Assembly: GCF_900102195.1 (NCBI RefSeq)
Contig: NZ_FNBE01000012.1
Coordinates: 124,001 to 188,000, forward strand
DNA from: Pseudonocardia oroxyli
GTDB lineage: Bacteria > Actinomycetota > Actinomycetes > Mycobacteriales > Pseudonocardiaceae
DNA: 64,000 nucleotides
Direction of reading: 5' to 3'
In this document: in pieces, positions 4,976-30,328 of the stretch
Layout of the letters: each line of letters starts with the position of its first letter
Numbering within the stretch: position 1 is the stretch's first letter
Notes under the pieces: generated by a model
What the model was told of the DNA's origin: nothing
Database searches by the model: none
Seen by the model: the letters and a program-made list of their open reading frames with translations, nothing else
Translations under genes and position numbers: made by a program

Positions 4976-5467
4976 TCAGACGGGGTCGAGGGCGAAGGTG
5001 TCCAGGTCGAGGACGAAGCCCTTGACCTCCATGTCCGGCACCGTGAACGGGCTCTCCCGCAGCCGCGCCACGCCCGCGCGCACGCTGTCGGCGGGGTCCG
5101 CGAAGGAGCCGGGGGCCCACTCCGGGGTGGCACCGCACTCCGACTCCAGCTTGGCGACGAGCTCGGGGTCGGTGAAGGTCGCCATGCCGCAGCCCTTGTG
5201 CTGCACCACGTAGACCGTGCGGGTGCCCAGCTCGCGCTGGCTGATCGTCACCGATCGCACCACGTCGTCGGTCACGATGCCGCCCGCGTTCCGCAACACG
5301 TGGGACTCGCCGGGCTTGATCCCGAACAGCGCGACGGGATCGATCCGGGCGTCCATGCAGGTGACGATCAGGGTGTGCAACGAGGGCGGCGCCGGAAGAC
5401 CCTTGGCGGCCTCGGCAGCCGAGGCGGCGCCCCCGTCCTGATGGCGAATGAGGAGTTCGTCGGTCAC
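4976..5467 (-). CDS. Beta-class carbonic anhydrase
   Basis: A 163-residue zinc enzyme that interconverts CO2 and bicarbonate. Zinc and catalytic residues are visible in CMDARID (C37, D39, R41) and HKGCGM (H90, C93). Size and motif spacing match the short actinobacterial type such as mycobacterial Rv1284 (recalled). The GTG start overlaps the asd stop as GTGA, so translation is probably coupled to asd. A larger open frame continues upstream only as a shadow of asd and ask. Coupling to aspartate-pathway genes may provide bicarbonate for anaplerotic oxaloacetate, the precursor of aspartate (inference). Confidence 0.93.
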
Positions 5468-6522
5468 GAGGCGAATTCTCCCGCGATGGTCTCGGCGATC
5501 TCGTAGGTGTTCAGCGCGGCGCCCTTGCGCAGGTTGTCGCCGCAGAGGAACAGATCGAGTGTGTTCGGGAAGTCCAGCGCCTGCCGGATGCGCCCGACGT
5601 GCGTGGCGTCCTTGCCCACCACCGCGGCGGGGGTCGGCCAGACCCCGGCGGCCGGGTCGTCGTCCAGCTCGATGGTCGGCTGCGCGGCGATCACCTTCTG
5701 GGCCGCCTCGACCGACACCTCCTGGGCGAAGGTGGCGTGCACCGCGAGCGAGTGGGTGGTGACCACCGGGACGCGGACGCAGGTCGCGGACACCTTGAGG
5801 TCCGGCAGGCCCAGGATCTTGCGGGACTCGTTGCGCACCTTGAGCTCCTCGGACGACCAGCCGTCGTCCTTGAGCGAGCCGGCCCACGGCACCACGTTCA
5901 GGGCCAGCGGCGCGGGGAACGGCGAGTCGTCGCCCAGCGGCGCGACCGCGGCGGCCACGTCCCCGGACACGGCCCCCAGGTCCTTGCCCGCCACCGCGGA
6001 CAGCTCGGCCTGCAGCCGGTCGACGCCGGCCTGCCCCGCCCCGGACGCGGCCTGGTACGAGGCCACGACGAGCGCCTCGAGCCCGAACTCGCGGTGCAGG
6101 GCACCCATGGCCGCCATCATCGACAGCGTGGTGCAGTTGGGGTTCGCGATGATCCCCTTCGGACGGTCGGCGGCCTTGTCCGCGTTCACCTCGGGGACCA
6201 CCAGCGGCACGTCCGGGTCCATCCGGAAGGCGCCGGAGTTGTCCACGGCGACCGCGCCGCGCGCCGCCGCGATCGGGGCCCACTCGGCGGAGACCTCGTC
6301 CGGGACGTCGAACAGGGCGATGTCCACGCCGTCGAACGCCTCGGGCGAGAGGACCTGGACCTCGACGCCGGCGCCGCGGATCTGCAGGACCTTGCCCGCC
6401 GAGCGCGCGGACGCGATGGGCCGGATCTCCGCCCACGGCACCGTCTCGCGGGCGTTGATGATGTCGATCATCGTGGTGCCGACGGCGCCCGTGGCGCCGA
6501 CGATCGCCAGAACCGGAGCCAT
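5464..6522 (-). CDS. asd: Aspartate-semialdehyde dehydrogenase
   Basis: Catalyses the NADPH-dependent reduction of aspartyl phosphate to aspartate semialdehyde, the branch point to lysine/diaminopimelate, threonine and methionine. The 352-residue protein has the nucleotide-binding loop VGATGAVG near the N-terminus, the catalytic cysteine in NPNCTT (C130), and the active-site histidine in the [10 protein letters not shown] stretch. The ATG start lies 3 nt after the aspartokinase stop, so both are made from one mRNA, and the stop overlaps the carbonic anhydrase start. The ask-asd pair is conserved across actinobacteria. Confidence 0.97.
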
Positions 6523-6525
6523 CGC

Positions 6526-7794
6526 CTACCGTCCCGTCCCGGCCGCGACCACGACCTCTTCCTCGGAGTCCAGCTCGAAGGCCTCGTGCAGCGCGCGCAC
6601 CGCGTCGTCCAGCTGGTCGGACCTGCAGATCACGGAGATCCGGATCTCGGAGGTGTTCATGGTCTCGATGTTGATCCCGGCGTCCGAGAGGGCCTCGCAG
6701 AACTTGGCCGTGACGCCCGGGTGGTTGCGCATGCCCGCGCCGACCAGCGAGACCTTGCCGACCTCGTTGTCGTAGATGAGCTCGGTGTAGCCGATCTCGG
6801 CCTTCGAGCGCTCCAGCGCGGCGACGGCGGCGGGGCCGTCCGCGCGGGGCAGCGTGAACGTGATGTCGGTCTTCTTGTCCGCGGCGTTGGAGATGTTCTG
6901 CAGCACCATGTCGATGTTGATCTCGGCGTCGGCCACGACGCGGAAGATCCGGGCGGCCATGCCGGGGGTGTCCGGCACGCCCGTCACGGTGATCTTGCCC
7001 TCGGACCGGTCGTGCGCCACCCCCGTGATGATGGGGTTCTCCAACGGAATCTCCTCGATCGAGCCGGCCACGAGCGTGCCGGGCTTGTCGTTGTAGCTGC
7101 TGCGGACGCGCAGGGGGACGTTGTAGCGGCGGGCGTACTCGACGGCCCGCAGGTGCAGCACCTTGGCGCCGCACGCGGCCATCTCGAGCATCTCCTCGTA
7201 GGTCACGGTGTCCAGGTGCCGTGCCTTCGGCGCGATGCGCGGGTCCGCGGAGTAGATGCCGTCCACGTCGGTGTAGATCTCGCAGACGTCCGCGTTCAGC
7301 GCGGCGGCCAGCGCGACGGCGGTGGTGTCCGACCCGCCGCGGCCCAGCGTGGTGATGTCCTTCGAGTCCTCGGACATCCCCTGGAAGCCCGCGACGAGGA
7401 CGATCTGCCCCTCGGCCAGCGCGTTCTTGAGCCGGTACGGGTTCACCTCGACGATGCGGGCGTCCCCGTGCTTGCTCGTGGTGAGCATGCCCGCCTGCGA
7501 ACCGGTGAACGAGCGCGCCTCGGCACCCAGCGAGTGGATCGCCATCGCGACGAGCGCGTTCGAGATGCGCTCGCCCGCGGTGAGCAGCATGTCCATCTCC
7601 CGCGGCGGCGGCGCCCCCGTGGAGACCTGCTCCGCCAGGTCCGTCAGCTCGTCCGTGGTGTCACCCATCGCGGACACGACCACGACGACGTCGTGACCCT
7701 CCTTGCGGGTTCGGACGATGCGCTCCGCGACCTTCTTGATCCGCTCCGCGCTCTCGACCGACGATCCGCCGTACTTCTGCACGACGAGGGCCAC
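6526..7794 (-). CDS. ask: Aspartate kinase
   Basis: Phosphorylates aspartate as the first step to lysine, threonine, methionine and diaminopimelate. The 422-residue protein begins with the kinase motif KYGGSSV, has [12 protein letters not shown] in the catalytic domain, and two C-terminal ACT domains (from about residue 265) for feedback inhibition. GTG 7794 is preceded by AGGAGG at 5 nt. In corynebacteria and mycobacteria the same gene also makes a regulatory beta subunit from an internal Met near residue 250. Here the matching codon is ATC (Ile, in [11 protein letters not shown]), so the usual internal start is absent; a TTG a few codons on follows GAGGAG and could replace it. Confidence 0.97.
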
Positions 7795-8741: not shown

Positions 8742-10610
<1,869 letters not shown>

Positions 10611-10616
10611 CGCACC

Positions 10617-10658
10617 CGTGCGTGGTGAGTGGTGCCAGAGCACCACTCACCACGCACG
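10617..10658. terminator. Perfect 19-bp palindromic hairpin after leuA (palindrome family A)
   Basis: Arms CGTGCGTGGTGAGTGGTGC (10617-10635) and its exact complement (10640-10658) flank a 4-nt loop CAGA. It lies between convergent genes and contains the stop codon of the minus-strand gene. Near copies occur at 37431-37472 and 59979-60020. Confidence 0.8.
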
Positions 10659-11243
10659 AGCGGCGGAGCTGCCCGCCTCGAAGAACGTCCGCAGGGTCGC
10701 CTCGTCCGTGAGCTCGTGCACGGCGCCGAAGTCCGCGTTCCAGAACGGGCCGGACCGCGGCGTCCACGGCCCCACGTAGGCGTAGGGCTCCGGGTGGCCG
10801 GCGTCCCCCGGTGACACGCCGTAGTTCACCTCGTCCTTCGCGATCGCGAGATCGAAATGCTCGGGCCACAGCACGGGCTCGCTCTCCGGCGCGAACGCGC
10901 GCAACGCCCGCTCCCCGGTGCCGAACCAGCCGAGGAGCAGGTGGGTGGCCGCCTCGTCGACGACGATCTCGTCGTCGAGCGCGGCGCCCGAGTGGTCGGA
11001 GTACACCCCCTCCGGCACCCCGGGCTCCACTCCCGCCCGCGCCGCCAGGTCGCGGTAGTTGCCGCGCAGCGGCGCCCGCCCGCCCTCCCACACCAGCTCG
11101 GTCCCCGAGACCCGCAGTGACCCGCTGACCTGGCCGAACCCACCCGGCACCACGCGCAGCCGGATGGTCCCGGCCGCCCGGAACTGCGGGCCCGCGAGCA
11201 GCAGCTCGGCCACCCCGTGCAACGCGTGCCTGGTCCCGCTCAT
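10647..11243 (-). CDS. Conserved hypothetical protein downstream of the TPR-CHAT gene
   Basis: A 198-residue soluble protein I do not recognise. It has no signal peptide or membrane segment. Trp, Gly and acidic residues are frequent (ELVWEGGRAPLRG, HLLLGWFGTGERAL, PYAYVGPWTPRSGPFW), suggesting a beta-rich fold. Its ATG overlaps the stop of the TPR-CHAT gene as ATGA, so the two are translated together and may act together. The last codons lie inside the intergenic hairpin. Confidence 0.75.
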   Translation of the reverse strand: MSGTRHALHGVAELLLAGPQFRAAGTIRLRVVPGGFGQVSGSLRVSGTELVWEGGRAPLRGNYRDLAARAGVEPGVPEGVYSDHSGAALDDEIVVDEAATHLLLGWFGTGERALRAFAPESEPVLWPEHFDLAIAKDEVNYGVSPGDAGHPEPYAYVGPWTPRSGPFWNADFGAVHELTDEATLRTFFEAGSSAARAW

Positions 11244-13840
11244 GCGGCACCGAACGCGGTGAACGCGGTGTGCAGGACCAGGCCGTGCGGGTCCTCGACG
11301 TCCACGGCCGCGCGGGCCGCGTGCACGGCGTCCGCCATCGTCGCACCGCGGGCCAGCGCCCGGTGCAGGTCGAGGGAGAACCCGACGGTCACCGCGTCCC
11401 CGATCGGCGCGATGCTGGCCGCCACCGCGGCCGCCCCGCGGGCCATCAGGGCGCCGACCAGGCCCAGCACCTCATCACCCTCGACGGGCACCCCGGCCGC
11501 GGACTCGCAGACCGCGAGCACCGTGCGGCGCGGGGCGGCACCGAGCAGGTCGAGGCGGTGCACCGTCATGTCCCCGTCGGCCAGGCGCACCGCGGAGAAG
11601 ATCGGGTTGTCGGCCCGGACGAGCCCGTGGCAGGCGAGGTGGGCGAGCTCCGCCCCCGCCAGGGTCGCCGTGACGGCGGCGACGCTCGCCACCGGCGGCA
11701 CCAGCACGTCGGCGTCCGGGTGGAGTCCGTGCAACCGGGTCACCTCCTCGACCGCGCCGGGCAGCCCCGGCCCCGCCACCAGGACGGTCCGGCCGCCCGC
11801 GGCCGGGGTGCCCGCCGTCCGCGCCCACAGCGACATCGAGGGTGCGGCGGAGACCGGCCCCGGGTGCAGGGCCGACCACGGCACCTCCCGGGTGGTCGGG
11901 TCCGGCACCACGACGACGGGGGCCTGCGGATCCAGCCCCAACGGCGCGACGAGCAGCTCCCGCAACCGGCCCACCGCGTGCCGGGCCGCGGCGGGAGCGG
12001 ACCGCGAGGGCCTGCCGGGGCGCCCCAGCCTGCGCAGCGCGGCACCGAGCGCCTCCGCCTCGACCGCCACGTCCGCCCGGGCGCCCAGGCCCACCAGCTC
12101 GGTGCGGCGGGGCCGGACCACGACCGCGAAGACCCGGCCCCCGTCGGTCCCGTAGGCGACGAGCGGGCGCCCGGCCAGCAGCCGTCGGACCTCGGAGAGG
12201 GAGGCGGTGCCACCCCGCCCCGGCTCGGCCGCACGACTGCGCCAGGCCGCCTTGCGCACCCGGACCTCCAGGGTGGCCTGCTCGGCGAGCAGCGTCGCGG
12301 GTTCGGCCGCACCGTCTCGCCGCAGCTGGGCGAGCTCGGCCTGCACCGCCGCCAACGCGGCGCGCGGCGCGCGGACCTCCTCCTCCAGCGGCGGCGCCGA
12401 GGTCAGCAGGGCCGCCGCCCGGATCCGGTCGAGCCACCGCAGCACGTCCGCGGGCGGTGCCGACCGCAGCAGGGCCCGCAGGCCGAGCCTGCCGAGCTCC
12501 ACGCCGTGCCCGGAGGCGAGGGCGCGCAGCTCGGTCGAGCCGAGGGTGTCGCGGTGCCGGTTGAGGTCCAGCAGGCCGCCGCGGGCGTGGCGGACGACGC
12601 CGGCGTCGTCTCCCTCGGTGTGGGCGGCCAGCGCCCCGGCGAGCCGGGCCTGCGCCCTGACCAGCACCGATCCGCGTCTCCCCTCGGTCAGCGCGGCGGC
12701 CAGGTGGGCGCGGGCGACGGGCCGCCTGCTCAGGGCCAGTGCGGCGCGGCCTGCGGCCAGGTGGCCGTCGACGAGCGCGGCACGCTGCCCGTTCGCGGCG
12801 AGGGTGCGGACGGCGCGGCGGGCCGCCGCCAGGTCCACGGGCTCGACCCGGCCGACCGCGAGCAGCGCCGTCACCCGGACGATCTCCGCCCGGGCCACCC
12901 AGGCCGGGCGCCGTTGGGCCCGGAACGCGGCGGTCGCCGCGGCGGCCGGGGCGAGCGCGGCCTCCGGGTCCCGCCCGCGGGCCTCCACGTGCGCGAGCCG
13001 GAGCAGGGCCTCGGCCCCCATCAGGCCCGCCCCGCCCGCCGCGAACGACTCCTGGGCGCGCCGGGCGGAGGTGCGCGCCTCGGCGGTCAGCCGCAGGTCG
13101 AGGAACGTGTCGAGCTGTTCGAGGTGGAGCTCGCCCTCGGCCAGCCCGACCGCGCGGTAGCGCTGCTCGGCGGCGTCGAAGGCGCGCAGGCTGTCCGCGA
13201 GGCGGCCCGCCCGCGCGAGGACCCACCCGCGGGAGCAGGCCACGAGCGCCCCGAGTGCCGGCCCGGCGAGGGCGTCGGCGCGGTCGAGCAGGCCCAGCGC
13301 GACCTCCGGGCGCCCCAGCTGCGCCTCGATCATGGCCAGGTTGTTGGCCACCTTCGCCTCGGTCTCGCGGGTGGTCCGGGGGTCGGCGAGCACGCGGCGG
13401 CAGATGCGGGCGGCGTCGGGCAGCCTGCCCACGTTGTAGAGCACGGACGCCCGCTGCAGCTCCAGCTCGGTGTCCCCGCCCGGCGCCGCCTGCGCGGCGG
13501 CGTCGAGATCGCGCGCGGCGGGCGCGAACCGGCCCCGCTCCAGCTGGACGACGGCGCGGGACACCAGGACCTCGTGCAACCGCTCGGCCAGCCCGGCCGC
13601 CCTGGCCAGCCGGACCGCCTCGTCGAGCAGCCGTTTCGCGGAGTCGTGCGCGGTCCGGGACCGCTCGTAGGCGGCCTGCGCCCGCAGCGCGACGACGAGC
13701 GCCTCCCGCGCCACCGCGGCCCGGCGGGCCTCCGCGACGAGCGCGGGCACGGCCGGACCCGCGCTCCGCGGGTCCGCCACGACGTCCGCGTGCAACGCCA
13801 CAGCACGTATCACGAGATCAGTGGACACGTCCTGATTCAT
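11240..13840 (-). CDS. TPR-CHAT domain protein (caspase-like protease candidate)
   Basis: An 866-residue protein: a long alpha-helical N-terminal part (about residues 1-500) of TPR-like repeats rich in Ala/Leu/Arg, then a C-terminal CHAT domain related to caspases and separases. The catalytic pair is present: His in HLACHG (about residue 738) and Cys in VLAVCESA (about residue 778). There is no signal peptide. CHAT proteases are known to act in regulated proteolysis, for example the TPR-CHAT subunit of type III-E CRISPR. ATG 13840 is used; 61 nt separate it from the divergent subtilisin gene, so they likely share a control region. Its target is unknown; neighbours suggest the protein at 15214-15660 or the subtilisin. 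Confidence 0.88.
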   Translation of the reverse strand: MNQDVSTDLVIRAVALHADVVADPRSAGPAVPALVAEARRAAVAREALVVALRAQAAYERSRTAHDSAKRLLDEAVRLARAAGLAERLHEVLVSRAVVQLERGRFAPAARDLDAAAQAAPGGDTELELQRASVLYNVGRLPDAARICRRVLADPRTTRETEAKVANNLAMIEAQLGRPEVALGLLDRADALAGPALGALVACSRGWVLARAGRLADSLRAFDAAEQRYRAVGLAEGELHLEQLDTFLDLRLTAEARTSARRAQESFAAGGAGLMGAEALLRLAHVEARGRDPEAALAPAAAATAAFRAQRRPAWVARAEIVRVTALLAVGRVEPVDLAAARRAVRTLAANGQRAALVDGHLAAGRAALALSRRPVARAHLAAALTEGRRGSVLVRAQARLAGALAAHTEGDDAGVVRHARGGLLDLNRHRDTLGSTELRALASGHGVELGRLGLRALLRSAPPADVLRWLDRIRAAALLTSAPPLEEEVRAPRAALAAVQAELAQLRRDGAAEPATLLAEQATLEVRVRKAAWRSRAAEPGRGGTASLSEVRRLLAGRPLVAYGTDGGRVFAVVVRPRRTELVGLGARADVAVEAEALGAALRRLGRPGRPSRSAPAAARHAVGRLRELLVAPLGLDPQAPVVVVPDPTTREVPWSALHPGPVSAAPSMSLWARTAGTPAAGGRTVLVAGPGLPGAVEEVTRLHGLHPDADVLVPPVASVAAVTATLAGAELAHLACHGLVRADNPIFSAVRLADGDMTVHRLDLLGAAPRRTVLAVCESAAGVPVEGDEVLGLVGALMARGAAAVAASIAPIGDAVTVGFSLDLHRALARGATMADAVHAARAAVDVEDPHGLVLHTAFTAFGAA

Positions 13841-13901
13841 GACACCGCCTGCCGCCCCGGGGTGGAGGCAGGTTACGACGGCGCGCACGCAGGAGGCACC
13901 C

Positions 13902-15203
13902 ATGGCTTGGGGAAAAGAGTTCGCGATCGCGGACACCGACACCGGATACGTCCGGACGGCGGAGCAGCGGTTGGTCGACCGGCAGGGTGTCACCGCCCAG
14001 GCGGCCTACTTCGCGAGTCCCGGCGCGGAGGCCTACCAGAACGCGCTGCTACGGGAGATCGACGAGCGCGCGGGCGAGCGGGGGCCGTGCACCTGCACCG
14101 TCCGCCGGGGGGACCGCTCGGTGCTGGCCGCGCCGGACGAGCTGCTGGTCCGCACCACCCAGCTGGACGCCAACGTCCGCGCGCTGCTCACCGAGCTGGA
14201 CTTCGAGGCGGGTGACACCGCGCTCGACGGCCGGGTGACCCGGCTGCGCTCGCTCGTGTCGAACCTGCCAGTCGAGCGGCTCGACGAGGTGCTGCTGGTC
14301 CTGCAGAGCCGCGGCGTCCCGGCCTCGCTGAACCACCTGACCCCGCTCGGCCCGTGGGCGAAGGGGCAGGGCGGACCCGAGAACACCACGGGTCGGGTGC
14401 AGCCGCCGCCTGCGCCCGTCGACGACCGCCCGCTGGTGGCGGTGATCGACACCGGGGTGAACACCGACGAGCGCACCGACGGCTGGCTGTCCCGCCTGGA
14501 GCTCGCCGAGAAGGACCTGCTGACCGAGTTCGGCAAGGACCGCACACTCGGGTTCGCCGCCGGGCACGGCACGTTCGGCGTCGGCGCCCTGCTGCAGGTG
14601 GACCGGGGGGCGCGGGTGCGGGCCTACAAGGCGCTCAACTCCGACGGGATCGGCACCGAGGTGGAGGTGGCCGAGGCCATCGTCCGGGCCGCCGCGGACG
14701 GCGCGACGGTGATCTCCCTCTCCCTCGGCACCCGCACGCTCGACGACCAGCCCCCCGTGGCGATCGACGTCGCCCTGGAGTCGCTGCCCGCCGAGGTGGT
14801 CGTGGTCGCCGCGGCGGGCAACTACGGGGACGAACGCCCGGTCTGGCCCGCCGCCTTCAGCCGCGTGGTGTCGGTCGCGGCCCTGACCTCGACCGGCCAC
14901 GGCGCGCCCTGGTCCACCCGCGGCTTCTGGGTGGACTTCTCGGTGGTGGGCGAGGGCGTCGTCGCGCCCTACCCGGTGGGGACGGAGTCGGCGTTCATCG
15001 ACCCGGAGCCGGACACGTTCGGCCCGAACGCCTGGGCCGTGTGGAGCGGGACGTCCTTCGCGGCGCCCCAGCTCGCCGGGCTGATCAGCCGGCTCACCCC
15101 GCAGTGCGGCGGCAGCCCGCACGCGGCGCTGGCCGAGATCACGCGCCACGCGGTGCGGCTGCCCGACTACGGCCGTGCGCTGCAGATCCTGCCCGGTACC
15201 TAG
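13902..15203 (+). CDS. Cytosolic S8 (subtilisin-type) serine peptidase
   Basis: A 433-residue protein with a complete subtilase triad: D183 (AVIDTGV), H222 (GHGTFG) and S385 (SGTSFAAPQ), plus the oxyanion Asn in AAAGN307. About 170 residues precede the catalytic domain; they are not a signal peptide (MAWGKEFAIADTD) and no membrane anchor is seen. Subtilisins are normally secreted, so a cytosolic one suggests intracellular regulated proteolysis; the N-terminal region may be an inhibitory or docking domain. ATG 13902 has AGGAGG 5 nt upstream. It is divergent from the TPR-CHAT gene and converges with the sigma-linked gene. Confidence 0.92.
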   Translation: MAWGKEFAIADTDTGYVRTAEQRLVDRQGVTAQAAYFASPGAEAYQNALLREIDERAGERGPCTCTVRRGDRSVLAAPDELLVRTTQLDANVRALLTELDFEAGDTALDGRVTRLRSLVSNLPVERLDEVLLVLQSRGVPASLNHLTPLGPWAKGQGGPENTTGRVQPPPAPVDDRPLVAVIDTGVNTDERTDGWLSRLELAEKDLLTEFGKDRTLGFAAGHGTFGVGALLQVDRGARVRAYKALNSDGIGTEVEVAEAIVRAAADGATVISLSLGTRTLDDQPPVAIDVALESLPAEVVVVAAAGNYGDERPVWPAAFSRVVSVAALTSTGHGAPWSTRGFWVDFSVVGEGVVAPYPVGTESAFIDPEPDTFGPNAWAVWSGTSFAAPQLAGLISRLTPQCGGSPHAALAEITRHAVRLPDYGRALQILPGT

Positions 15204-15213
15204 TGGCCCGGGA

Positions 15214-15660
15214 CTAGACCGCGATCCGTCCGCTCACGATCACCCGGCCGCCCGGCAGGGTGATCGTGAGCGACAGCGCCACCGTCTCCACGGGCAGGTC
15301 GGCGGCGAAGCGGCCCAGCTCGTCCGCGGTCAGGGCGAGCGACTCGCCCCCCAGGACCAGCTCCACCGCGGCCCCGCCGCCGGGCGCGAGCTGCCCGACG
15401 AGCCGCCTGCCGTCCAGCCCCGGCACGACCTCGATCTCGATCTCCACGTCGCCCGCCTCGAAGGCCAGCGCGCGCGGTCCGGCGGCTCCGCGCACCACGC
15501 CCTCGAGCCCGTCGACCAGGGAGTCGTAGGTGAGCGCGGCGAGCTCGGCGTCGACGGTCCGCCACGCGAACAGGCCCTTGGCGGCCTCCACCACCTCGCG
15601 GGGGGCCCGGCGGTCGGCGAGGGCCGCGGCGAGCTCGGCGGCCAACTCGTCGTCAGTCAT
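15214..15660 (-). CDS. Small protein translationally coupled to the ECF sigma factor (possible sigma partner)
   Basis: A 148-residue acidic protein: an N-terminal helical part with the motif AAKGLFAWRTVDAELAALTY (residues 26-45) and a C-terminal beta-rich part of alternating hydrophobic strands. No membrane segment or zinc-binding anti-sigma motif is seen. I recall similar FAWRT-type proteins next to sigma factors in other actinomycetes but know no assigned function. Its ATG lies inside the end of the sigma gene (8-nt overlap), implying fixed stoichiometry, as expected for a sigma factor and its regulator. It could be an anti-sigma factor destroyed by a neighbouring protease (inference). Confidence 0.8.
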   Translation of the reverse strand: MTDDELAAELAAALADRRAPREVVEAAKGLFAWRTVDAELAALTYDSLVDGLEGVVRGAAGPRALAFEAGDVEIEIEVVPGLDGRRLVGQLAPGGGAAVELVLGGESLALTADELGRFAADLPVETVALSLTITLPGGRVIVSGRIAV

Positions 15661-16204
15661 CGCTGCCCACCCCCTCCGGCAGCAGCGCGCGCAACCGGTC
15701 CAGGCACCGCGCCCGGGTCGGCCCGATGCTGCCGATCGGCATGTCCAGCACCGACGAGACCTGCGCGTACGGCAGCGCGAGCACCACGACCAGCTCCAAC
15801 AGCCGGGCGCAGCGCTCGTCGAGCGCCTCGAAGGCGGCCCGGACCAGGCGGGCCCGCTCCCCGTCGAGCGCGCGCTCCTCCGGCCCCGGCTCGGTCGCCG
15901 GGGCGTCGGGCTCCGTCTCCGTCGGCGACTCCCGACCGGCCCGCCGGGCCAGCCGCCACGCCTCCCGACGGGCGGTGGTGGCCAGCCAGCCGCCGATCGC
16001 CTCGGGTTCGCGCAGCGTGCCCAGGTTCTCGACCAGCCGCAGGAACGTCATCTGCACGGCCTCGCCCGCGTCCGGCCTGCCCAGACCCTGCCGCAGGGCC
16101 ACCGACCAGACCAGCGAGGAGAAGTCCTCGACCAGGCGGTGCCAGGCCGACTCGTCCCCGTCCGCGGCGCGACGGACGACGTCCGCGACGTCCTCTCGGT
16201 CCAC
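15653..16204 (-). CDS. ECF-type RNA polymerase sigma factor
   Basis: A 183-residue sigma-70 family protein with region 2 (WHRLVEDFSSLVWSVALRQG through AWRLARRAG, about residues 15-95) and region 4 (ALDERCARLLELVVVLALPY followed by AQVSSVLDMPIGSIG, about residues 115-175); regions 1 and 3 are absent, as in ECF sigmas. GTG 16204 follows AGGAGG at 11 nt; a GTG at 16228 is possible but lacks a site. It is the first gene of a two-gene operon and may control the subtilisin and TPR-CHAT genes nearby (inference). Confidence 0.9.
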   Translation of the reverse strand: MDREDVADVVRRAADGDESAWHRLVEDFSSLVWSVALRQGLGRPDAGEAVQMTFLRLVENLGTLREPEAIGGWLATTARREAWRLARRAGRESPTETEPDAPATEPGPEERALDGERARLVRAAFEALDERCARLLELVVVLALPYAQVSSVLDMPIGSIGPTRARCLDRLRALLPEGVGSDD

Positions 16205-16396
16205 GCTCGCCCGTTCCTCCTCGGTCACCCCATGTGGTGAGGAGGAACCTATCCGACCCAGTGCCGACCATCCCAGACCTTCCCCGACGCGCATCTGTCG
16301 TGAGGAGGCGATCCGGGCCCGGGGCGATACGACTCCGACCGGGCGACGGCGGGTCACCCGCAGTGACCGGGCTGCGGGGTCGCGTACGGTCGAGCC

Positions 16397-27676: not shown

Positions 27677-30328
27677 TCAGCGCTGGTCGAGCGCCTTCGC
27701 ACCGAGCTGGGAGGACAGCAGCTCGATCGCGACCTCCTCGGGATCGCGGCGCACGGAACGTTCGGCCCGGGAGGCGTCCGCCTCGGCGATCATGGCCTCC
27801 TCGTCGTCCGGCGGCGGCTCCTCGTCCGGCGGCTCGGGGGGCAGCGGAACGCCCTCGTCGCCGCGGCCGCGACCACCCGAGGGACGGCGGAACCCACCGG
27901 ACTCGGGCCGGCCCGGACCACGGTCGTCCGCGGGCGGGCGCGGCTGCTCGGCCCGCTGGGGTCGTTGGTATTCGCCCCGCTGCGGGGCCGGCCGCGGCGC
28001 CTCGGGCTCGGGCCGCTCCGCCGGGGCCGGGTCCTCACGACGGGAGGGCCGCTGCGGCGCCGGGCGCTGCGGTGCCTGCCGGGGGGCGGCCTGGCGAGCC
28101 GGACCCGCTCCCCCGCCCTCGCCGGCCTCCACGCGGACCCGCCACTGCACCCCCAGCACGGCGTGCAGTGCGGCGCTGATGACGTCCGTGTTCCGGGTGT
28201 CCTGCAACCGGCGGGCGAGCGGCGGCGACCCGATGGCGAGCACCAGCGTGTCCCCCTCGACCGCCCGGACCGTGGAGTTGACCATCAACGCCTCGGTGCT
28301 GCGGCTGCGTTCGCGGGCCGCGGCGAGGATCTCCGACCAGACCCGGCGCACCGCGCTCGCGTCGAGCCCGGCGGCGACGGGCTCCTGCTCCTCCGCCGCG
28401 GGCTGCTCCGGCGCGGCGGCGGGCTCGGGCGCAGCGTCCACCGCGGGGCTCTCGGGCTCGGCCGCGAAGGCCCGCTGCGGCTCCCGCGACGGGCGTTCGG
28501 CCGCATGCTCGGGCTCTCGCACGGGATCCGGCCGCTGCCCGCGAGCGGTCTGCCCGGACTCCTCGGCGGCCGGCGGCTGCTCGGCAGACCCCGGCGCGCC
28601 CGCGGCACCCGAGGCGTCGGCCTGTGCCGCGCGGCCGGCGGCCGACTCCGACCCGTCGGTGGTGGACCTCGGCTGCGCCGGGTCCACGGTGTCCGACGGG
28701 GTCGCGACGTCTGCAGCCTGCGGCTCGGCCGCACGACGTTCGGTGGCGGGCTCCGTGCCAGGGCGCTGAGGCGCGTCCGCGGGCGGAGCGGCGCGATCGG
28801 CGACAGGGCTCGACGGCCCTGCGGCAGGCTCGGTCGCCTGTCCCGCAGGCTGTTCCGCGGGCTCGGCCGCCGGTCCGGCAGGCTGTCCCGCCGGCTCAGC
28901 GACCCGACCCGACGGCGCAGGCTCCGCCACCCGACCCGACGGCGCTCCGGCGGGTTCGGCGACCCGACCAGAAGGCGCCTCCGGACGCTCCGCCACCCGA
29001 CTCGCGGGCGCTCCGGCGGGTTCGGCGACCCGGCCCGACGGCGCTTCCGCGGGCTCCGCAGCGCGGTCCGACGGCGCAGGCTCGTCCTGTCGCTGCGACG
29101 GCCGCACGAACTGCGGCTTCGCCGGTTCCGCCGCCCCCGACGCCCCCGCCGCGAGCGGCTCCGCGGAGATCGCGTTCCGCCGCTCGACCCGCTCCAGCCG
29201 CTCGAGCAGCCCGGCGTCCGAGGTGGTGGCCGCGGGCAGCAGCATGCGGGCGCACAGCAGCTCCAACAGCAGCCGCGGCGCGGTGGCGCCCCGCATCTCG
29301 GTGAGGCCCGCGTGCACGATCTCGCCGTAGCGGGCGAGCGTGGCGGGCCCGAGCCGCGCCGCCTGCTCGACCATGCGCTCCAGCTCGTCCGACGCCGCCT
29401 CGACCAGCCCCTGGCTGCCCGCCTCCGGCACCGCCTGGACCAGCATCAGGTCCCGCAGCCGCTGCAGCAGGTCCTGCGCGAACCGGCGCGGGTCGTGGCC
29501 CGCCTCGACCAACCGGTCGACGGCCTGGTAGACGGCCGCGCCGTCGCCCGCGGCCAGGGCGTCCACCACGTCGTCGATCAGGGCGACGTCGGTGACCCCG
29601 AGCAGCGCCATGGCGCGCTCGTAGGTGACCCCCTCCGGCCCGGCGCCCGCGAGGAGCTGGTCCATGACCGACAGGGTGTCGCGCGCCGAACCGCCGCCTG
29701 CCCGGATGACCAGCGGATAGACGGCGGACTGGACCTGCACGCCCTCGTCCGCGCAGATCCGCTCGAGCAGCGAGCGCAGCGTGCCGGGCGGGATGAGCCG
29801 GAACGGGTAGTGGTGGGTCCGCGAGCGGATCGTGGGCAGGACCTTGTCCGGTTCGGTGGTCGCGAACACGAAGACGAGGTGCTCCGGCGGCTCCTCCACG
29901 ATCTTGAGCAGGGCGTTGAAGCCCTGCGTCGTGACCATGTGCGCCTCGTCGACGATGAACACCCGGTACCGCGACTCGGCCGGCGCGTAGAAGGCCCGGT
30001 CCCGCAGCTCGCGCGCATCGTCCACACCACCGTGGGACGCCGCGTCGAGCTCGACGACATCGATGTTCCCCGGCCCCTCCGGGGCCAGTGCGACGCAGGA
30101 GTTGCAGACCCCGCACGGATCGGGCGTGGGCCCCTCGACGCAGTTCAGCGAGCGGGCCAGGATCCGCGCCGACGACGTCTTCCCGCAGCCCCGGGGGCCG
30201 GAGAACAGGTACGCGTGGTTGATCCGCCCCGCCGCGAGCGCCGTGCCCAGCGGTTCGGTGACGTGCTCCTGCCCGACCACCTCGGCGAACTTCGCCGGGC
30301 GGTACTTGCGATACAGAGCCAGCGCCAC
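27677..30328 (-). CDS. dnaX: DNA polymerase III subunit gamma/tau
   Basis: The clamp-loader ATPase. The 883-residue protein starts ALYRKYRPAKFAEVVGQEHV, with Walker A GPRGCGKTSS (residues 44-53), the zinc-binding Cys cluster CVEGPTPDPCGVCNSC, Walker B FIVDEAHM and sensor motif. The N-terminal 380 residues form the AAA+ and collar domains. A very long Pro/Ala/Glu-rich linker with tandem repeats follows, then a C-terminal tau domain and charged tail. GTG 30328 is used because it gives the canonical beginning. It converges with the amidase gene 1 nt apart. Confidence 0.95.
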   Translation of the reverse strand: MALALYRKYRPAKFAEVVGQEHVTEPLGTALAAGRINHAYLFSGPRGCGKTSSARILARSLNCVEGPTPDPCGVCNSCVALAPEGPGNIDVVELDAASHGGVDDARELRDRAFYAPAESRYRVFIVDEAHMVTTQGFNALLKIVEEPPEHLVFVFATTEPDKVLPTIRSRTHHYPFRLIPPGTLRSLLERICADEGVQVQSAVYPLVIRAGGGSARDTLSVMDQLLAGAGPEGVTYERAMALLGVTDVALIDDVVDALAAGDGAAVYQAVDRLVEAGHDPRRFAQDLLQRLRDLMLVQAVPEAGSQGLVEAASDELERMVEQAARLGPATLARYGEIVHAGLTEMRGATAPRLLLELLCARMLLPAATTSDAGLLERLERVERRNAISAEPLAAGASGAAEPAKPQFVRPSQRQDEPAPSDRAAEPAEAPSGRVAEPAGAPASRVAERPEAPSGRVAEPAGAPSGRVAEPAPSGRVAEPAGQPAGPAAEPAEQPAGQATEPAAGPSSPVADRAAPPADAPQRPGTEPATERRAAEPQAADVATPSDTVDPAQPRSTTDGSESAAGRAAQADASGAAGAPGSAEQPPAAEESGQTARGQRPDPVREPEHAAERPSREPQRAFAAEPESPAVDAAPEPAAAPEQPAAEEQEPVAAGLDASAVRRVWSEILAAARERSRSTEALMVNSTVRAVEGDTLVLAIGSPPLARRLQDTRNTDVISAALHAVLGVQWRVRVEAGEGGGAGPARQAAPRQAPQRPAPQRPSRREDPAPAERPEPEAPRPAPQRGEYQRPQRAEQPRPPADDRGPGRPESGGFRRPSGGRGRGDEGVPLPPEPPDEEPPPDDEEAMIAEADASRAERSVRRDPEEVAIELLSSQLGAKALDQR
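28890..29075 (-). repeat. Tandem repeats inside dnaX
   Basis: The tau linker contains about six imperfect copies of a unit reading APSGRVAEPAG, encoded by repeats around GACCCGACGGCGC and TCCGCCACCCGA. Such DNA can change copy number by slippage; copy number is likely variable between strains. Confidence 0.7.

Follow-up and report, generated by a model that had tools for sequence, protein, structure and literature searches.

A conserved actinobacterial module of a probable ECF54-type sigma factor, the FAWR protein, a subtilisin and a TPR-CHAT protease, with a predicted promoter

The five genes of the Pseudonocardia oroxyli locus and their conservation

The subject of this work is a group of five genes at 10647..16204 of a 64,000-nt stretch of the Pseudonocardia oroxyli genome (contig NZ_FNBE01000012.1, positions 124,001 to 188,000; hereafter "the window"), which an initial annotation had interpreted as a possible protease-triggered transcription switch. 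All five open reading frames were found where that annotation had placed them. On the minus strand, the gene of an extracytoplasmic function (ECF) sigma factor (SIG; 15653..16204, with a GTG start at 16204 and an alternative in-frame start at 16228) overlaps by 8 nt, as its coordinates confirm, the gene of a 148-residue protein that we call FAWR (15214..15660), a candidate soluble regulator (anti-sigma factor or adaptor) in which an N-terminal FAWRTxDxEL..YDS segment precedes a beta-type domain. Convergent with FAWR, and with only 10 nt between the gene ends, lies the gene of a subtilisin of the S8 family on the plus strand (13902..15203, with an upstream start also possible at 13839; Peptidase_S8, 67.8 bits). 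It is followed on the minus strand by the gene of a caspase-like TPR-CHAT protease of 866 aa (11240..13840; Pfam CHAT, 82.1 bits, with weak matches to TPR) and by that of the function-unassigned protein U198 (10647..11243), which is translationally coupled to CHAT by a 4-nt overlap with the end of the CHAT gene. The two proteases are as they had been described from the sequence alone: the His-Cys pair of CHAT (His738/Cys778) and the triad of S8 (Asp183/His222/Ser385, plus Asn307) are intact, and S8 has no hydrophobic N-terminus that could serve as a signal peptide.

SIG, FAWR, S8 and CHAT constitute a conserved actinobacterial module. We retrieved neighbourhoods centred on FAWR, blind to their CHAT and S8 content, and scanned all six frames with family profiles, obtaining 154 loci distinct by their FAWR DNA, of which the 131 that have 6 kb or more of flank to either side were used to assess co-occurrence; these loci are not phylogenetically independent and include several each from Lentzea, Saccharothrix, Kribbella, Micromonospora and Nocardioides. 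FAWR is present in 35 of the 120 family genomes searched with a single sequence, in 91 of 296 genomes of the class (profile search) and in 37 of 296 genomes of the phylum, where some matches are partial and weak. Within 6 kb of FAWR, a sigma factor gene is found in 130/131 loci, CHAT in 121/131 and S8 in 101/131; CHAT occurs without S8 in 22 loci, S8 without CHAT in 2, and neither in 8. Co-occurrence across actinomycete genomes had been set beforehand as a test of the grouping, and it turned out strongly positive, with all four families together in 99 of the 131 loci, against 3 CHAT, 0 S8 and 4 sigma matches in the 538 kb of flank lying more than 6 kb from FAWR. As the four genes occur together in ten different gene orders, their proximity has survived repeated rearrangement. 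On the other hand, U198, which had been counted with the switch, appears not to belong to this set. Its gene is present in 20 of 148 genomes of the class and adjoins the module only in the window and at L031 and L108, while in 7 other genomes that possess both it and FAWR the two are separated by about 440 kb or lie on different contigs. Searches of Pfam, NCBIfam, PADLOC and the PDB returned no match for U198, which is probably a passenger.

The sigma factor of the window matches Sigma70_r2 above its cut-off (36.1 bits) and TIGR02937 (68.2 bits against a cut-off of 42.9), whereas its Sigma70_r4_2 match (20.4 bits) is below the cut-off of 25.7. In region 4.2, the motif GSIGPTRxRC is conserved in 139 distinct SIG relatives, with its Arg residue invariant (139/139). 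By genetic context, rather than by an ECF54 profile, the module appears to be of the ECF54 type. According to the passages on ECF54 in a review (PMC8999054), which trace the group to Huang 2015 and Casas-Pastor 2021 and take its model member from Geodermatophilus, ECF54 sigma genes are surrounded by subtilase, CHAT and "carboxypeptidase" proteins, and proteolysis is suggested to keep the sigma factor inactive without an anti-sigma factor (section 3.3). The grouping itself is thus already in print and is not new. The actinobacterial ECF sigma factor with subtilase and CHAT in its context is what the window and the 99 complete loci share with that description, and the Geodermatophilus locus in our set (L174) has SIG-FAWR-CHAT and S8; the same passages mention no promoter, regulon or repeat arrays of the kind reported below. 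Our search of the literature found no experiment on the ECF54-type grouping of proteases and sigma factor.

In FAWR, about 50 N-terminal residues with the motif given above, which we read as helical, are common to the family and are followed by the C-terminal domain. At the permissive threshold of E <= 0.5, CarboxypepD_reg is recognised in the latter in 62 of 100 members (best 2.7e-7; the window FAWR is unmatched) and CarbopepD_reg_2 in 15 of the 100; in addition, the FAWR profile matches 7dm0, an Ig-like repeat of Bap, which is a surface protein of biofilms (E 1.2e-5). Thus, in most relatives the C-terminal half of FAWR resembles a carboxypeptidase-regulatory-like domain rather than a peptidase, which appears to be a new observation and makes FAWR the best candidate for the missing partner of the sigma factor. 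The "carboxypeptidase" reported near ECF54 may then be FAWR itself and no peptidase: the review counts carboxypeptidases among the peptidases, whereas here the protein with such a domain appears to be FAWR, which is, by the type of that domain, non-catalytic.

Both proteases appear to be kept active, their catalytic residues being practically invariant: among 120 distinct CHAT relatives, 119 have the His and 118 the Cys, with gaps in the others, and the S8 Asp/His/Asn/Ser set is found in 106/106. A region of about 180 aa precedes the catalytic domain of S8. The parts of the module look cytosolic, as neither a signal peptide nor a membrane segment was detected among 105 S8, 143 FAWR and 142 sigma proteins; in particular, a hydrophobic N-terminus is absent from 105/105 S8 proteins and a hydrophobic segment of 19 residues from 143/143 FAWR proteins, and one hydrophobic 19-mer occurs somewhere in 5 of 120 CHAT proteins. 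Two assignments of S8 to known protease families were rejected, namely to the mycosins of the type VII secretion system (TIGR03921, 77.9 bits against a cut-off of 278.75, with no signal peptide seen) and to the anti-phage protease IetS/IteS (NF042956, 11.8 bits against a cut-off of 900; best PADLOC IetS match 3.1e-4).

Several features of the surroundings should be mentioned. The module is flanked on one side by a leuA-like gene (8925-10610) and by aspartokinase and asd-like genes (5464-7794), as we presume from reading their sequences, and on the other by what we take to be an ABC transporter. Further away, 33-nt direct repeats at 28790-29080 lie inside an 883-aa gene (27677-30328), presumably DnaX-like, and probably encode a low-complexity linker of that protein. 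The closest named relatives of the window FAWR come from Pseudonocardia humida and P. lacus, which have two FAWR loci each (L108 and L110; L109 and L111). In the congener G104, a CHAT of the window family with 36% identity to that of the window (L189) is located on a contig other than that of the SIG-FAWR-U198 locus, behind a small gene which we take to encode a HATPase anti-sigma factor. The genome of the window contains 4 CHAT genes in 6.1 Mb; the other three (L190 and L191, contig C37) are clustered in a stretch of about 26 kb, together with a caspase-like gene and genes of large function-unassigned proteins, and probably form another conflict-type island.

A promoter-like motif at the sigma factor and linked protease genes

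When bipartite words were enumerated across 316 start regions, GTATC-N16-GCTC occurred in 31 of them; in random sequence, the top-ranking word came to 16. Ten loci with a FAWR protein identical to that of another locus were excluded from the promoter counts. The weight matrix describes GTATC[A/T], a spacer of 16 (less often 17) nucleotides, and [C/G]CTC; we use a low threshold, passed by 2% of random 300-bp stretches, and a strict cut-off at a score of 14.5. At the low threshold, sites are found in 47 of 81 start regions of sigma genes, 26/104 of S8, 1/10 of FAWR and 3/121 of CHAT, and under a slightly different cut of the transcription units in 63/93, 26/103 and 3/124 for sigma, S8 and CHAT, respectively. 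Where the sigma gene follows a module gene on the same strand, the site is present in 29 of 32 cases, and where S8 heads an S8-sigma unit, in 19 of 60.

Above the strict cut-off there are 237 sites in 2.8 Mb, and their density per 100 kb drops from 22 in the 2 kb nearest to FAWR to 1.4 at a distance of 8-10 kb (0.57 in the third-order random control). This enrichment is in part circular: the start regions concerned had served to train the matrix. A further twenty loci, which belong to other classes, lie outside the training set, although that set does include four Acidimicrobiia records. Around these twenty, 26 strong sites were found within 5 kb of FAWR (196 kb) versus 4 beyond (160 kb), and the low threshold is exceeded in 5 of 11 start regions of S8, 3 of 10 of sigma, 3 of 8 of FAWR and 1 of 10 of CHAT.

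In the window, the predicted SIG-FAWR promoter is located at 16304..16330 on the minus strand (GTATC-N17-CCTCC, with a score of 12.9, for which P is about 0.004 in random stretches of 300 bp), and the SIG site is above the threshold in 6 of 7 Pseudonocardia-type loci, falling below it at L108. A candidate second promoter, 5' of S8 and within the 5' end of CHAT, lies at 13807..13832 on the plus strand (GTATC-N16-CGTCC, score 13.2; P about 0.003); it departs from the -10 consensus and is not conserved at L111, the single congener compared. Both sites entered the last rounds of training and were absent from the seed set. Among 17 further sites in the genome of the window, the best (21.0, GTATC-N17-GCTC) precedes a 959-aa gene of the AAA_16/LuxR type at L242 (C17:252632-256237), which stands tail to tail with the gene of a second ECF sigma factor that has the same GSIGPTRAR region 4.2 as SIG; this site may belong to that second sigma factor. 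A genome-wide regulon read from so short a motif was rejected, the motif not being specific.

The same motif precedes other genes, none of which had been used in training. Papain-like proteases of modules that lack S8 carry it in 6 of 7 cases, namely all five close relatives (L055, L056, L061, L065 and L067, with scores from 15.7 to 23.4) and the remote relative at L091. In Nocardioides-type loci, a strong site is found in 7 of 8 members of a family of about 94-131 aa whose proteins begin with MTWxETHER, and whose one member searched has no Pfam match; at L086, L160, L178, L180, L186 and L187, these genes are divergent from the module or close to it. Small proteins that flank the sigma gene in loci without S8, six of them repeat-rich, have sites above 14.5 in 5 of 9 cases and above the low threshold in 8 of 9. 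Sites also precede the LuxR/AAA_16 regulators at L077, L081 and L105 and, at L221, the gene of a Nal1/trypsin-like protein in which PVTRDP is repeated.

The motif thus marks the sigma gene, a part of the S8 genes and the majority of the linked papain genes, and hardly any CHAT, a distribution that appears to be new and that suggests autoregulation of the sigma factor with CHAT as an input. The sigma factor appears to switch on its own gene and further proteases. We take CHAT as the input because it lacks the promoter motif and is more constant than S8, and we take S8 or its substitutes to be partly output. The presence of proteases of other folds under similar promoters provides the best evidence for proteolysis as part of the output, and perhaps also of the input, of the module.

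Hexapeptide arrays in the subtilisins

A scan for tandem arrays with periods from 5 to 12 in the 115 S8 proteins with a length of 300 aa or more detected arrays in 12 of them, and in all 12 the period is six residues. All of the arrays stop short of the catalytic His motif, and 11 of the 12 are followed by an Asp motif. The units are lineage-specific (NPLTRG, GYGDGV, NPFTRS, GNPSFF, GNPAYQ, GNPGYQ, SGGPFT, GHPMYD, QANPAY, GHPFWG, GHPFWV and PYPGGT); the combination of a six-residue period with lineage-specific sequence appears to be new. In 11 of 12 arrays, synonymous codon changes between the copies exceed other changes, which suggests that it is the peptide and not the DNA that is maintained. 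Five more S8 proteins (L071, L098, L116, L126 and L161) carry 3-4 scattered copies of a short motif at the same junction, and most S8 proteins, including that of the window, which has no array, carry a single Pro/Gly motif at this position; in the window it is NHLTPLGPWAKGQGGPENTT (14331..14390, plus strand; S8 residues 144-163), with a presumed role at the junction.

Loci without S8 (L048, L051, L052, L054, L057, L061, L062 and L064) possess small disordered-looking proteins of 79-213 aa that adjoin the sigma gene or CHAT, several of them with GGIPHAE, GHVGTGSAP or GATDPS repeats; strong sites are present at 5 of these 8. It is tantalizing to imagine a caspase-to-subtilisin cascade with interchangeable address tags, in which the hexapeptide array would anchor the zymogen of S8 to the TPR superhelix of the cognate CHAT, a cut made by CHAT at that point would release active subtilisin together with the sigma factor, and the small stand-alone repeat proteins of S8-less loci would carry the tag under the same promoter. 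We regard this scenario as rather improbable. One genome has two complete S8-CHAT-FAWR units in a row (L218, 6799-18031) with different arrays, SGGPFT and GHPMYD, as would be expected if the tag kept paralogous pairs apart. However, a comparison of S8 junctions with the remaining proteins of each locus yielded just five pairs with a common 5-mer, all chance-like, and no word of an array recurred elsewhere in its locus, which gives no direct support for a tag common to S8 and the small proteins. Dispersed clients carrying the repeat motif were also sought and rejected: in G057 and G109, exact GGIPHAE is confined to the small gene (4 and 3 sites), and in G330, NPYWKVP is confined to S8, with one site of a different peptide that fits the loose pattern, a pattern unable to detect the NPFTRS and NPLTRG arrays in G225 and G223 and uninformative there. 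If the scenario is true, the six-residue arrays represent a new sort of protease address tag.

Proposed mechanism, its rivals and known systems

The functional link between sigma, FAWR, S8 and CHAT that had been surmised from the window is supported by the co-occurrence, the conserved catalytic residues and the sigma-type motif at the linked papain-type proteases. Starting from what is observed, i.e. the gene linkage, the catalytic residues and the promoter-like motif with its distribution, we propose an autoregulated ECF54-type sigma module, to which we assign a probability of roughly 0.45. Its core would be the sigma factor and co-translated FAWR, most likely a soluble cytosolic antagonist or adaptor whose helical N-terminal segment would contact the sigma factor and whose beta domain would serve as the sensor or docking part. 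TPR-CHAT, made independently of the sigma factor, would be the input protease: once its TPR part meets a cytosolic signal, CHAT would cut FAWR and/or the S8 zymogen at the junction of prodomain and catalytic domain. The freed sigma factor would then transcribe its own operon from GTATC-N16/17-CTC promoters in a positive feedback and, in some lineages, S8 as well, or elsewhere proteases of the papain or trypsin type or small disordered proteins. The binding of FAWR to sigma, the cleavage events with their order and sign, and the nature of the signal are the parts of this mechanism that we infer.

Several results weigh against this proposal. The existence of loci that lack S8, or both S8 and CHAT, implies that FAWR and sigma can work without the proteases, and both FAWR-sigma binding and protease cleavage enter the mechanism by inference; among the matches listed for 100 FAWR members (25 of 43 Pfam families), there is no known anti-sigma domain. 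As regards the motif, of the 38 S8 genes that form a transcription unit by themselves only 5 have a site, the remote papain relative at L207 has none, and the window holds no site above 14.5. In other classes, 15 of 147 start regions of non-module genes exceed the low threshold, and genome-wide the motif outnumbers its reversed control whether or not a genome contains FAWR (for example, 12 versus 5 in G000 and 42 versus 25 in G002).

The main rival, which we consider possible but doubtful, reverses the sign: S8 and/or CHAT would degrade the sigma factor or its complex with FAWR, a signal would inhibit them, and sigma-driven S8 would provide negative feedback, in line with the sign suggested for ECF54 (PMC8999054, section 3.3). 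The motif before some S8 and papain genes fits such negative feedback as well as it fits output. However, FAWR, the most constant neighbour of the sigma factor, is then left without a task, and modules without S8 or without both proteases do exist. Alternatively, the proteases could be outputs only, with sigma and FAWR as a free-standing switch for a ligand of the FAWR beta domain, and with S8, papain-like proteases and CHAT as travelling effectors of protein turnover or cell death. The eight loci with sigma and FAWR alone and the papain-type proteases with their own sites in S8-less loci agree with this idea, yet we hold it to be unlikely, as CHAT is more constant than S8 and has hardly any motif in its start regions, which better suits an input. 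A Craspase-like anti-phage system with a CHAT sensor other than gRAMP is suggested by the parallel of TPR-CHAT, the sigma factor and a possible sigma inhibitor to Csx29, CASP-sigma and Csx30 (PMC10028731), but it is very improbable: there is no convincing PADLOC match (the best, 2.3e-7, is to a generic subtilase model), the loci often adjoin core genes such as groEL or leuA, and the window CHAT scores far below the Csx29 cut-off. Finally, a chance neighbourhood of unrelated genes is refuted by the counts in the modules and in the distant flank.

The proposed autoregulated mechanism is partly supported, and it is now testable through a defined promoter. It concerns a module shared, in ever-changing gene orders, by many soil bacteria related to Streptomyces. 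If it is true, a common class of actinobacterial sigma factors is controlled by cytosolic proteases of the caspase-like and subtilisin types, without CRISPR or membranes. The predicted promoter offers a reporter and a regulon, and the long-open question of the role of TPR-CHAT outside CRISPR becomes testable in Streptomyces.

With respect to known systems, the module shares with RseA/DegS the possible release of a sigma factor by a protease; however, RseA/DegS is membrane-bound and senses the envelope, whereas the parts of the module are predicted to be soluble. With the EACC1, EACC2 and CATRA systems, as described in PMC8195603 and PMC7159879, it shares an actinobacterial setting and a caspase-fold protease, and some EACC2 neighbourhoods contain an ECF sigma factor and a TPR protein; on the other hand, the constant component of EACC1 has one transmembrane helix, whereas FAWR has none, and the Pfam matches of the window proteins include no CATRA or EACC family. 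The initial annotation had drawn a parallel to type III-E CRISPR, where a TPR-CHAT protease cuts the sigma inhibitor Csx30 and CASP-sigma is encoded in the locus (PMC10028731). Membership in that system was rejected, since the window CHAT reaches 13.8 bits with the Csx29 model NF041237 against a cut-off of 300 and, as had been stated, the window has no CRISPR array, i.e. no CRISPR-like family of closely spaced direct repeats; nor was gRAMP (Cas7-11) recognised there from gene lengths and names, no gRAMP model having been run. The window module also differs in containing a subtilisin and in the 148-aa FAWR, whose profile matched no Csx30 chain among PDB matches up to E 5. The parallel stands as a likeness of parts, with a TPR-CHAT protease, an ECF sigma factor and a separate small gene in one locus, and if our proposal is true, the actinobacterial module provides a testable parent case for the Craspase type of logic.

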